The notes under the pieces: model-generated
Seen by the model: only the letters and a program-made list of their open reading frames with translations
What the model was told of the DNA's origin: nothing
The model's database searches: none
Part shown: positions 30,497-34,598 of the stretch, in pieces
Position numbering within the stretch: the stretch's first letter is position 1
Layout of the letters: every line of letters starts with the position of its first letter
DNA from: Actinomycetota bacterium
Lineage (GTDB): Bacteria > Actinomycetota > Actinomycetes > Nanopelagicales > Nanopelagicaceae
Direction: 5' to 3'
NCBI GenBank assembly: GCA_009698675.1
Contig: WLPT01000010.1
Location: 1 to 49,177 of the forward strand
DNA length: 49,177 nucleotides
Program-made: the position numbers and the translations under genes

Positions 30497-31306
30497 ATGG
30501 TGGCTAAGAAGAGCTCCTTCTTAAACTGGGTCGGTTTCAAAGGTGAAGAACTGAACCAACCCTCCTCTGTTGATCGCATTCGCGAACTTGAATCTCAATT
30601 AGCCGACCTTCGTTCCCGCCGAGATATCAATGGCTTAAGCAAAGAAGAGTTTGAAATCCTTGCAACTGAAACTGCAATGGCAATGATTAAATCGGCCCAA
30701 GCTCGTGAGAGTAAAGCACATGCAACGGCCTCTCGCTTAGTTGCCGAGACAAATCGAATTACTAAAGAAGAGATTGAGGCCGCCGATTCGAAGGCACGTG
30801 CAATCTTAAGTGGCGCTGAAACGCGCGGTCGCAAATATATTCAAAGCGCCGAAGATGCTGCTGGCCAGATGGTCGCCGAAGCCGAGGCTGAAGCCGAGGC
30901 ACTGGTAGATTCCAAGCGACGTGAAGTTGCATCGCTGACAACAGCGGCCCGTCGAGAAGGTGAACGAATTATTAGCGATGCAACCTCTGAAGTGTCTAAC
31001 TACCGGCAGTGGCTTACTGGTGTGATTTCTGAAGCCGAACGTCTATACAAGATTCAAACTCAATCTTTAGATGCCGCACAAAATGCAATCCATCAATCAA
31101 GAGCCCGTCTTGAGTCAGCATTCACCAGACTCGCAGAGTTGCAAAAGAGCGTCATTGAAAACTTGAACTCCGATGACACGATTATCGATACTGGGCCAAT
31201 TAAAGTAACCAGCGAGCGGACTAAGGTCGCAATTTCCGCCCCTAGAAAAACTTCACAGTCTAGAACTAAGAAAGCAGTTGCAAAGAACGCTGCCACACGT
31301 AAGTAG
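30497..31306 (+). CDS. DivIVA-like coiled-coil protein
   Basis: 269 residues, almost all helical and charged, with no membrane segment. After a short N-terminal part the protein has long heptad-rich stretches (about 22-50 and 60-235, including EAEAEAEALVDSKRREV), like the middle of Wag31/DivIVA proteins (ATETAMAMIKSAQ). The classic DivIVA N-terminal lipid-binding motif is not seen. The last 25 residues are basic (SRTKKAVAKNAATRK). It lies 6 bases upstream of an envelope acyltransferase gene, which suggests a role at the growing cell pole or septum. The function is inferred. Confidence 0.65.
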   Translation: MVAKKSSFLNWVGFKGEELNQPSSVDRIRELESQLADLRSRRDINGLSKEEFEILATETAMAMIKSAQARESKAHATASRLVAETNRITKEEIEAADSKARAILSGAETRGRKYIQSAEDAAGQMVAEAEAEAEALVDSKRREVASLTTAARREGERIISDATSEVSNYRQWLTGVISEAERLYKIQTQSLDAAQNAIHQSRARLESAFTRLAELQKSVIENLNSDDTIIDTGPIKVTSERTKVAISAPRKTSQSRTKKAVAKNAATRK

Positions 31307-31312
31307 TTAGTT

Positions 31313-33064
31313 ATGGCAACAGCTCGAGGAATTCGATATATCCCAGCCATCGATGGCTTGCGTGGCGTTGCAGTACTTGCAGTACTCCTTTATCACTTGG
31401 GCTACACATGGATTCCCGGTGGTTTTCTTGGAGTTGATCTCTTCTTCGTAATCTCTGGTTATGTTATAACTCGCCTACTTCTCGACTCTATTGCGCGAAG
31501 TGGTGGATTAGATCTTCGCGCCTTCTATAAGGCTCGTTTTCGACGCCTCTTCCCGCCGCTAATTGCGATGATTATTCCGACCTCTATCTACATCGCAATC
31601 TGGGCGCCGGAGACGATGCGCCGCTTTCTTAGTGACTCACCCTTCGCGCTGCTCGGGGCAATGAATTGGTGGTTGGTATTTCGCCACACAGACTACTTTG
31701 ATGCCATTGCTAGACCTCCACTGCTACAACACACATGGTCTCTCGGTGTGGAAGCGCAGTTTTATTTACTTTGGCCTTTGATTCTGCTTCTTGTGCTGCG
31801 TTATTTTGGGAAGAAGAGAATTCCTGGAGCAGCCCTATTAATTGCAGCAATTTCCGGTGTTGTACTTCTCATCGTTTCCTTTCAAGTAGATGCTTCCAAC
31901 GCCTCACAAATTAGCCATGTTTACTTTGGCACGGATACCCACTCAATCGGACTCTTCTTAGGTGCCGCTCTTGCTGTGAGTTGGATTCCCCAGAATCTAA
32001 AACTAGATGTTGATAAACGCGCGCAGGATTTTATCGATGGAGTTGGCGTTATTGGTTTTCTGGGAATGCTGGCAACTTTTTTATTCATCAACGAGACCGA
32101 TCCAACACTTTATAAGTTGGCTTTCCCGCTTGCAGGAATCTTTGGATGTGCAATCATCACCTCGATCGTCCATCCTGCTTCACGTTTTGCACCAATTCTC
32201 AGCAGCAAAATCGCCGTATGGATTGGTGAGCGCTCATATGCAATCTACTTGTGGCATTGGGTTGTTTTCCAAGTTACAAGACCTAGTGTCGATCTTGAAG
32301 GTTCACGATGGGCACTGGCTGCTCTTCGGATTCTTATTGTCTTTGCTTTGGCCGATATTTCATTACGCTTAATTGAGCTGCCAACTAGAAGCGGGTTAGT
32401 TGAATATTGGTTTAAAGGGATGAAATATCGAACTAAACGTTTGCAATTACATCAAAAATCGATTTTAGCTCTTTCTATATTGACGCTACTTACTTCAATT
32501 TCTCTCCTGAGTGCACATGCCGTTCAAGAGAGTGATCGAGCTATGGCCGCAGTCAAAGCTCAACTCGAACAAGAAGGCCAGAGCAAGGCTCAAAGTAATC
32601 CGACTAGCGCCGTTGACGGCCTTTGGGTCACTGGTGATTCAGTCATTCTTGGAGTTCGATATGAGTTGGACAGGCATGCCCACATTGGGCTCATTAATGC
32701 CCGCGTTGGGCGACAGGCTCCTGAGCTCATCGATGTGATGACTCATGACAAGGTACATATGGCGAATTCAACAGTGATCTTCAATCTAGGCAACAACAAT
32801 AAACTAACTGAGTTGCAAGTGGCAGATATTTTCAATGAGGTGAAGGATCAGCCAAAGATAATCGTTGTCAATACGGCCGTCCCACGGGACTGGCGCGATG
32901 CAAATAATATTTTGATTGCACAGTACGCCAGAAAGTTCGGCGCAAGACTTATAGATTGGGCTGCAATTTCAAATGAACACCCCGAATACTTTGCGCCAGA
33001 TGGAGTTCACTTAGTTGCATTGGGAGTTCAAGCATACGTCGCTGCAATTTCTGCAAATCTTTAA
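31313..33064 (+). CDS. Acyltransferase-3 family membrane protein with C-terminal SGNH domain
   Basis: 583 residues. The N-terminal two-thirds is an OafA/OatA-type acyltransferase with ten or more helices (IDGLRGVAVLAVLLYHLGY holds the catalytic histidine; DLFFVISGYV follows). After a last helix (about 385-403) and a linker comes an extracytoplasmic SGNH hydrolase-like domain with GDSV, GNNN and DGVHL blocks. Proteins of this build acetylate or otherwise acylate peptidoglycan or surface glycans. The target sugar cannot be read from the sequence. Confidence 0.9.
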   Translation: MATARGIRYIPAIDGLRGVAVLAVLLYHLGYTWIPGGFLGVDLFFVISGYVITRLLLDSIARSGGLDLRAFYKARFRRLFPPLIAMIIPTSIYIAIWAPETMRRFLSDSPFALLGAMNWWLVFRHTDYFDAIARPPLLQHTWSLGVEAQFYLLWPLILLLVLRYFGKKRIPGAALLIAAISGVVLLIVSFQVDASNASQISHVYFGTDTHSIGLFLGAALAVSWIPQNLKLDVDKRAQDFIDGVGVIGFLGMLATFLFINETDPTLYKLAFPLAGIFGCAIITSIVHPASRFAPILSSKIAVWIGERSYAIYLWHWVVFQVTRPSVDLEGSRWALAALRILIVFALADISLRLIELPTRSGLVEYWFKGMKYRTKRLQLHQKSILALSILTLLTSISLLSAHAVQESDRAMAAVKAQLEQEGQSKAQSNPTSAVDGLWVTGDSVILGVRYELDRHAHIGLINARVGRQAPELIDVMTHDKVHMANSTVIFNLGNNNKLTELQVADIFNEVKDQPKIIVVNTAVPRDWRDANNILIAQYARKFGARLIDWAAISNEHPEYFAPDGVHLVALGVQAYVAAISANL

Positions 33065-33118: not shown

Positions 33119-33925
33119 TTACTTAAACTCTCCGGGGATTCCAAAAGGCTTTGCATACGATGCCATTTGCCCATCGGAATAAACCGAAGTTATGCGGAAC
33201 TGTGTCCATCCGACTGCTGAGTTCAACGTAACATTCTGTGTTAACTGATCTGCTGGAACGCTAGCGATTGTTGTCCAATCCCCGACTCCATTTGCACGGA
33301 TTTCAACGTTGTATCCAGTCAAGCCATCGATGGCCATCGGTGCTAACCAACGAAGCTTCAATCCATCGGTGCTTTTGAGTGCAACAAATTTTGATGGTGC
33401 TTCAACGGCAGATACTGCAGGAGCCGATGCCGATTCACTTGGTGTGGCCGATGCCGAGATAGATGGTGTGGCCGATGCCGAGATAGATGGAGCAGGAGCT
33501 GCTGCATCATCACCATTTGAACCAGATTTTGACCAAACGATCGCAGCCAGAATGACGATACCTGCAACTACGAGAACTACTACACGGCTTGAAGTGCCCT
33601 GCTTAGGTTTGGCTGTTGGCTTTGGTGCAGAGTTCGAAGCTGGGGCTACTGGAGTTGCCGCTACTGGAGTTGCAAAGACATTGACTCTAGGAGTTACCGA
33701 ACGTACTGATGCCTTCTTAACTACACGCTTTACAGCTGCCTTCTTGGCAACCTTTTTCTTTGGCGCAGCTTTTTTGGCTACAGCTTTCTTGGTCGCGCTC
33801 TTTTTAACTACGCGCTTTGCAGCTGCCTTCTTTGCAACACTCTTTTTCGCAACCTTTTTGACGGTTCGTTTGGCTGGTGCCTTCTTGGCAACCTTCTTAG
33901 CTGGGCTCTTCTTTTTTACGGCCAC
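33119..33925 (-). CDS. Membrane-anchored protein with histone-H1-like tail and FnIII-like domain
   Basis: 268 residues from a GTG at 33925 with ribosome binding site AAGGAG. Layout: residues 1-85 are Lys/Ala/Val-rich with repeated PAKK, VAKK and VKK units, as in the C-terminal tails of histone H1 and mycobacterial HupB; then a Pro/Ala linker; one transmembrane helix (SRVVVLVVAGIVILAAIVW, about 116-134); an Ser/Ala/Pro-rich linker with an 8-residue repeat; and a C-terminal fibronectin-III-like domain (LKLRWLAPMAIDGLTGYNVEIRANG). The predicted topology puts the basic tail in the cytoplasm and the FnIII domain outside. No name or function is known to me. Confidence 0.8.
   Translation of the reverse strand: MAVKKKSPAKKVAKKAPAKRTVKKVAKKSVAKKAAAKRVVKKSATKKAVAKKAAPKKKVAKKAAVKRVVKKASVRSVTPRVNVFATPVAATPVAPASNSAPKPTAKPKQGTSSRVVVLVVAGIVILAAIVWSKSGSNGDDAAAPAPSISASATPSISASATPSESASAPAVSAVEAPSKFVALKSTDGLKLRWLAPMAIDGLTGYNVEIRANGVGDWTTIASVPADQLTQNVTLNSAVGWTQFRITSVYSDGQMASYAKPFGIPGEFK
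33441..33488 (-). repeat. 24-bp in-frame tandem duplication
   Basis: Two exact 24-bp copies (33441-33464 and 33465-33488) inside the gene of the histone-like membrane protein. They encode two SISASATP units of the external linker. Length variation between strains would not break the frame. Confidence 0.85.
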
Positions 33926-33980
33926 GATTACTCCTTGGATAGCGGTGCGCACGCAAATAACGCGCGTCGATAGGACAAGG

Positions 33981-34598
33981 CTACCTCAGCCCCCCAAGCA
34001 TTTCTATTACATGTGGCGCAATTGCTCGGAGTGATTTTCCACGATGACTTATCGCATCCTTTTCTTCGGCGCTCAACTGCGCCGACGAAATCGACATTCC
34101 AAAGGGTGCAAAAATAGGATCATAGCCAAAGCCCCCTGCGCCAACGCTGGTATGGAGAATGCTTCCAAAAAAGAGGCCCTCTGAAAGCTCTTCGCGGCCA
34201 TCTGGCATGACAAGGGCTGCAGCGCAGAGAAAGTGAGCTCCTCGCTTCTCATCGGGTACTGCTTTTAATTCATCCAAAAGCTTCTCTATATTTGCTTGGT
34301 CATTGCCATGCTCGCCCGCCCAACGTGCGGAGAAAATTCCAGGGGCGCCATTGAGTGCATCAACGCATAACCCAGAGTCATCAGAAATCGAAGGCAAGCC
34401 CGTCATCGCGGCCGTATATCTAGCCTTAAGCAAAGCATTTTCTGCAAAGCTCGTTCCAGTCTCTTCAACATCGACCAACTCTGGAAATTGATCAAGACCG
34501 ACTAGTTCAACTGTACTCTCGGAGATTGAATTGAGAATTCTACGAAACTCGACAATCTTTCCGAGATTGCGTGTTGCGATGACAAGTTTATTCGACAC
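33981..34598 (-). CDS. rdgB: Non-canonical purine NTP pyrophosphatase
   Basis: RdgB/HAM1 house-cleaning enzyme (205 residues) that hydrolyses dITP and XTP to keep them out of DNA. N-terminal VIATRNLGKIVEF and the catalytic DDSGLCVDALNGAPGIFSARWAG are clear. The start is a GTG at 34598. It is the last gene of the murI-rph-rdgB set, a common actinobacterial order. Confidence 0.93.
   Translation of the reverse strand: MSNKLVIATRNLGKIVEFRRILNSISESTVELVGLDQFPELVDVEETGTSFAENALLKARYTAAMTGLPSISDDSGLCVDALNGAPGIFSARWAGEHGNDQANIEKLLDELKAVPDEKRGAHFLCAAALVMPDGREELSEGLFFGSILHTSVGAGGFGYDPIFAPFGMSISSAQLSAEEKDAISHRGKSLRAIAPHVIEMLGGLR

Follow-up and report, generated by a model that had tools for sequence, protein, structure and literature searches.

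The window, which is the whole stretch of DNA analysed (49,177 nucleotides, contig WLPT01000010.1 of a member of the Nanopelagicales), contains a gene whose product was first described from its letters alone as a lysine-rich tail joined to one membrane helix, a Ser/Ala/Pro linker and a FnIII-like domain. The coordinates given in that sequence-only reading are correct, the gene lies on the minus strand, and frame reading, AlphaFold2 and hydropathy analysis recovered the joined build with its parts in the described order (Table 1). The gene is preceded by an rdgB-like gene and faces two convergent genes, an acyltransferase and, beyond it, a coiled-coil protein. The hairpin in the gap between the convergent genes likely serves as a two-way terminator, ending transcription of both the tail-helix-FnIII gene and the acyltransferase.

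Table 1. Features of the locus, with positions numbered along the window.
Feature	Position	Strand	Basis
Complete gene with its stop codon, 268 aa, GTG start	33119..33925	-	frame reading, orthologues
Shine-Dalgarno-like AAGGAG, 5 nt before GTG	33931..33936	-	read in sequence; SD-like core in 60/61 orthologues
Lys-rich H1-like tail, residues 1-80, without acidic residue	33686..33925	-	sequence, charge, HC2 matches
Proline-containing spacer ahead of membrane helix, residues 81-112	33590..33685	-	
Predicted membrane helix, residues 113-132	33530..33589	-	AlphaFold2, hydropathy
Acidic linker of Ser/Ala/Pro/Thr, residues 133-176, predicted to be disordered and to lie outside	33398..33529	-	
FnIII-like domain, residues 177-268	33122..33397	-	AlphaFold2, Foldseek, family profile against PDB
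Hairpin between two convergent genes	33074..33110		fold -26.4 kcal/mol, z -7.06
Upstream neighbour, conserved: rdgB-like gene of the Ham1 family, directly adjacent	33981..34598	-	Pfam PF01725; 28/28 loci
Convergent acyltransferase, conserved neighbour	31313..33064	+	PF01757; 28/28 loci
Coiled-coil protein with short basic C-terminus, conserved neighbour	30497..31306	+	

The sequence-only reading had named a start codon beyond the lysine-rich region as one finding that would undo it. Orthologue starts were assigned by us at a V/M-A-x-K motif in 61 sequences. The start codon is GTG in 60 of these, a Shine-Dalgarno-like core lies no more than 20 nt upstream in 60, and an in-frame stop occurs within five codons upstream of the start in 10, in two of them immediately upstream. 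Left out of the 61 were a locus with a masked tail (L025), a contig beginning inside the gene (L051), two genes cut by contig ends (L103 and L111), and four duplicates (L031, L032, L039 and L040, which are the same genes as L006, L029, L009 and L004, respectively). A start codon past the lysine-rich part is ruled out by the GTG with AAGGAG 5 nt upstream, by the orthologue starts and by codon selection within the tail. The stretch just upstream of the GTG (33926-33952, minus strand; in frame RTAIQGVIV), which contains the Shine-Dalgarno-like sequence, is conserved among close relatives and may be regulatory.

Residues 1-80 of the window protein are made up of xAKK/xVKK repeats, neither aspartate nor glutamate occurs across residues 1-112, and the net charge ahead of the hydrophobic segment is +38. 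The region had initially been described as about 85 residues of PAKK/VAKK repeats. A lysine-rich repeat tail of about 80 residues stands, but the emphasis on PAKK does not, as residues 1-112 contain five VAKK and four AKKA with a single PAKK and a single KKAP. Tail length varies from 50 to 141 residues among the 61 orthologues while the charge is kept, and aspartate and glutamate together account for 0.6% of the pooled tail residues. The spacer between tail and helix carries a V/I-P-x-V/A-P motif in 41 of the 61 orthologues, the window protein being without it. Aligned Lys-Lys positions of the tail differ between AAA and AAG at 1437 of 4301 sites, and the median dN/dS over unsaturated pairs falls from 0.27 in the linker to 0.20 in the helix, 0.17 in the tail and 0.09 in the FnIII domain (the tail value comes from 74 unsaturated of 152 pairs; pairs are non-independent, and many approach saturation at synonymous sites). 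This codon-level pattern indicates that the tail is read as protein. The tail is thus translated and purifying selection holds its composition, with the FnIII domain the most constrained part. Chance or artefact as the origin of the build is ruled out by its conservation, its fixed locus and the codon-level selection.

The Pfam profile HC2 (PF07382) matches 25 of 34 family members at E<=1. The window protein scores 25.7 bits, below the curated cut-off of 40 bits, and the orthologue in genome G040 scores 54.2 bits. Two side matches were rejected as falling below their cut-offs: Pfam DUF2397, on the tail and reaching into the helix, and an NCBIfam valyl-tRNA ligase, on the tail.

Structure prediction of the C-terminal part agrees with the FnIII-like domain proposed for residues 170-268. 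With a 34-sequence family alignment, AlphaFold2 predicted a confident block over residues 171-268 (pLDDT 81-97) containing an FnIII-like sandwich from residue 180, together with a helix at residues 113-132; the tail and most of the linker were low-confidence or disordered. The best 50 of 1551 Foldseek matches to the model are nearly all FnIII-domain proteins, 42 of them at E<=0.001, and the family profile matches FnIII chains in the PDB. The single sequence scored 14.7 bits against PF00041, below the cut-off of 25 bits, and that profile matches 17 of 34 family members at E<=1.

The protein appears to cross the membrane once. The best 19-residue hydropathy in the window protein is 2.63 and the next best 0.85; a second hydrophobic stretch was found only in orthologue L020 (1.72 vs 2.16), and the other 60 have none above 1.4. 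In all 61 orthologues the charge before the main hydrophobic segment is positive (+24 to +50, median +40) and the charge after it negative (-15 to -1). Because the N-terminal side is basic and the opposite side net negative, the positive-inside rule predicts a tail in the cytoplasm and an FnIII domain outside. The sequence-only reading had left both orientations open and proposed a topology check; on this charge pattern its cytoplasmic alternative is favoured, as a prediction, and its external one disfavoured. An arrangement as described for HbhA, in which an external tail would attach to acidic polymers of the surface, to host glycans or to DNA from the environment, is extremely unlikely in our estimation, given that every orthologue carries its positive charge N-terminal to the main hydrophobic segment. 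In the window protein an AAA-P stretch starts 9 residues after the helix, and cleavage may release the FnIII domain.

A basic tail at the inner face of the membrane need not contact DNA: it could bind acidic lipids or just fix the topology, leaving the FnIII domain as the working part. Such a role is consistent with a tail that varies in length (50-141 residues) and keeps its charge, and with the stronger constraint on the FnIII domain (median dN/dS 0.09 vs 0.17). It sits less well with the size of that charge, since a median of about 40 net charges far exceeds what topology needs, and with the similar tails found in this genome on proteins linked to DNA or RNA polymerase, which by family are not membrane proteins. 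We consider it unlikely.

We then ask how widely the build occurs. Across the Nanopelagicales the gene was matched in 188 of 201 genomes, the window's own included, at E<=0.001; 183 of these matches are strong (E<=4e-12) and five weak (E 1.3e-6 to 2.8e-4). Among the high-quality genomes of the order 105 of 108 were matched, 101 strongly. The same domain order therefore recurs in the order, with 183 of 201 genomes matching strongly, and the build that had been called unusual is so in general but is the norm within the Nanopelagicales.

The arrangement of the locus is likewise conserved. The rdgB gene lies upstream, and the acyltransferase (PF01757) and coiled-coil genes are convergent, as had been read in the window, at 28 of 28 loci from 8 genera; at six of these (L035, L036, L037, L049, L065 and L070) the frame of the gene was read separately from the neighbour survey. 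The murI and rph genes lie upstream at 27 of the 28 loci, L069 ending inside rdgB. The same build was also found beside rdgB in genera g40, g42 and g44, and in g39 and g41, where it is cut by contig ends. In genera g35, g38 and g43, ten genomes (L104-L107, L113-L115 and L117-L119) have no copy next to rdgB, and the occurrence of rdgB without the gene alongside indicates that the gene is dispensable within the order.

Beyond the order, 345 other genomes of the phylum were searched with a profile of the membrane and FnIII parts. No relative emerged at E<=1e-6 with up to 10 candidates per genome scored, a setting that a weak relative could escape; the two matches obtained are FnIII domains within frames of 1256 and 5192 aa. 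At class level, a nearly full-length match at E<=5.3e-73 was obtained for 27 of the 28 genomes listed from family f1, the window's own among them, with G100 the exception. The 26 non-self matches at this level all belong to f1, and the next best match (1.2e-18) covers the tail only. Outside f1, 191 of 268 genomes match at E<=0.001, among the matches listed nearly always on the tail part. These 191, together with seven weak matches outside the order (E 6.7e-6 to 6.8e-4), were set aside as composition, the listed ones lying nearly all on the lysine-rich part. Searches of the protein database, each scoring about 8000 candidates, returned at least 1228 relatives at E<=0.001 and, with the family profile, at least 1982 at E<=1e-20. 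Public names, taken from the best 120 relatives, are hypothetical, unannotated and, once, 'fibronectin protein' among the matches listed. A six-pattern scan of genome contigs, with two patterns from the repeat tail, confirmed no relative in a set that may omit near genomes, a result we do not read as absence.

Divergent proteins with this build are encoded at separate loci in two genomes (L041:4142-5128, minus strand; L042:6144-7076, plus strand), scoring 42.4 and 40.2 bits, respectively, against HC2 (cut-off 40 bits). The predicted structure of the L042 protein has a low-confidence tail, a helix at residues 154-172 and a confident sandwich at 223-309, for which the top Foldseek match is an FnIII domain (E 1.2e-3), with none at E<=0.001. 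Both genes lie just downstream of a gene for a large repeat protein, L041 by 19 bp (14 Listeria-Bacteroides repeats) and L042 by 10 bp (fn3 and Ig-like domains). A search of the other 120 genomes recovered no protein of the L041 type; 14 further matches to it at E<=1e-12 cover residues about 191-327 only, and most are sites of the main gene. By prediction, this second group shares the tail-helix-sandwich build.

Tails of the same kind occur on other proteins of the window's genome. HC2 at E<=0.01 marks three places there: the gene under study, a sigma-70-type protein and a TraR/DksA zinc-finger protein. The sigma-70-type factor (L140:1-1686, minus strand, contig C17) contains sigma-70 regions 1.2, 2 and 3 and has an N-terminal lysine-rich extension of KKAVAKKAP type; the TraR/DksA protein (L080:1434-2204, plus strand, contig C13) has an H1-like lysine-rich N-terminus. 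HU, which HC2 does not pick up, is present in 41 of 41 genomes, and its tail resembles that of the window protein in both loci read (2 of 20 fetched HU loci), the window's genome included. Proteins of the HU, sigma-70 and TraR/DksA families act on DNA or RNA polymerase, and in this company the tail most likely signifies a nucleoid address. The tails of the window protein and its own HU share three six-residue words, where shuffling gives 0.7 on average and up to 8, so that the overlap is not persuasive. In the complete relative G015, a phasin-like protein without a clear nucleoid role bears a short tail of similar kind.

The same company could point to RNA. In this reading the ligand of the tail at the membrane would be RNA, the ribosome or RNA polymerase, and the protein would be a transertion-like or ribosome anchor instead of a chromosome tether. 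The tails on the sigma-70-type and TraR/DksA-type proteins fit it, as does mycobacterial RplV, described in PMC10665949 as a 23S rRNA-binding protein that has AKKA repeats yet does not shift DNA. Against it, the DNA-binding protein HU bears the same kind of tail here, and we judge an RNA or ribosome anchor distinctly unlikely.

The coiled-coil neighbour had been labelled DivIVA-like. It has no match to the Pfam DivIVA family, and this identity was rejected after testing with PF05103. The profile had no match in the 61 genomes searched from the order, of which 60 are high-quality, though a very divergent DivIVA could escape this search; as a control, it matched 7 of 14 named genomes, including that of Corynebacterium glutamicum. 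Aligned orthologues of the coiled-coil protein keep a WVGF stretch at the N-terminus and a short basic C-terminal end of KK..AKRK type. We regard the protein as a candidate scaffold of the order, in which the organisation of the growth pole may use a scaffold other than DivIVA.

A scaffold of this sort might offer another partner for the window protein. The link could be to a scaffold of the cell pole or of division, for which the coiled-coil neighbour itself is a candidate, with DNA contact secondary, as proposed for Rv3852 of Mycobacterium tuberculosis with Wag31. The coiled-coil gene does lie beyond the acyltransferase at all 28 loci and encodes a basic C-terminus of its own, and Rv3852 is reported in PMC8233713 to bind Wag31/DivIVA directly. 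Two basic tails, however, would not be drawn to one another, Pfam does not identify the neighbour as DivIVA in an order where PF05103 was found in 0 of 61 genomes, and convergent genes are not co-transcribed. We think this link very unlikely.

Taken together, the protein is best read as one that tethers the nucleoid from an anchor in the membrane and has its FnIII domain as a grip on the outside, a reading which we hold to be somewhat better than an even prospect. The cytoplasmic tail would bind chromosomal DNA irrespective of sequence, as HbhA is reported to do; the single membrane helix is predicted to anchor the protein with the tail in and the FnIII domain out; and the outer FnIII domain would hold a partner in the envelope. 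The nucleoid would be kept close to the membrane by the physical link so formed. That the tail binds DNA we infer from its composition, from the tails of HU and the sigma-70-type and TraR/DksA-type proteins in the same genome, and by analogy with the precedent of Rv3852. Several observations count against the tether: many genomes of the class have lysine-rich stretches (matches in 191 of the 268 outside f1), AKKA repeats are no guarantee of DNA binding (RplV, as reported in PMC10665949), the role of Rv3852 is disputed, a phasin-like protein of G015 has such a tail, and the gene is missing beside rdgB in three genera.

A bolder form of the proposal is that a single polypeptide tethers chromosome to wall and holds the nucleoid mechanically, as a core gene of a genome-streamlined order without recognisable DivIVA, its build being re-used beside large repeat proteins. 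We put this forward tentatively and as the more doubtful version. A short protein conserved across an order, with the parts of a direct link from nucleoid to envelope, would make it testable how a chromosome is held at the membrane without systems of the DivIVA/RacA type. If the tether is real, the isolated and disputed mycobacterial case of Rv3852 becomes part of a wider theme, and there is a functional lead for a protein publicly named hypothetical, unannotated or, once, 'fibronectin protein'.

Several known systems resemble parts of this build. The chlamydial HC2/histone H1-like family (PF07382) has the same composition as the tail, a low-complexity similarity only, and is not known to include a membrane helix or an FnIII domain. 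HU of the HupB type, present in the window's genome, has a basic tail of AKK/PAKK type, but this is C-terminal to a soluble HU fold without a membrane helix. LINC-type links between chromosome and membrane embody the same working idea in nuclear membranes and with several proteins; no sequence relation is claimed. Nor is one claimed for RacA-DivIVA, as described in PMC8233713, which also holds chromatin at the membrane but employs several proteins and specific DNA sites. HbhA of M. tuberculosis contains lysine-, alanine- and proline-rich repeats like those seen here and is reported to bind DNA (PMC10665949), whereas its tail is C-terminal, on a different protein with a described glycan-binding role at the surface. 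Our search of the open-licence literature found no publication on a Nanopelagicales protein of this build.

The closest comparison, made by description, is with Rv3852, in which KAAK/PAAK repeats are followed by a C-terminal membrane helix (PMC8233713). The lysine-rich tetrapeptide region of Rv3852 is reported to bind DNA (PMC4433263), and the protein is described as located on DNA while tethered to the membrane, deletion of the helix leaving the nucleoid condensed (PMC8233713). Its role at the nucleoid, or as a NAP, is stated to be 'disproved' in PMC6155035, which cites Odermatt 2017, and both that report and PMC6319747 use Rv3852 as a membrane-fraction control. The window protein likewise has N-terminal lysine-rich tetrapeptide repeats and then a predicted membrane helix. 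The two differ in that the helix of Rv3852 is C-terminal, whereas here the linker and FnIII domain (residues 133-268) come after it; in distribution, Rv3852 being described as confined to slow-growing mycobacteria (PMC8233713) and the present family being near-universal in another order; and in the partner, which for Rv3852 is Wag31/DivIVA, a family whose Pfam profile is missing from all 61 genomes searched in this order. By analogy, the protein described here may be a variant of the Rv3852 kind that adds an outer FnIII domain and works alike.
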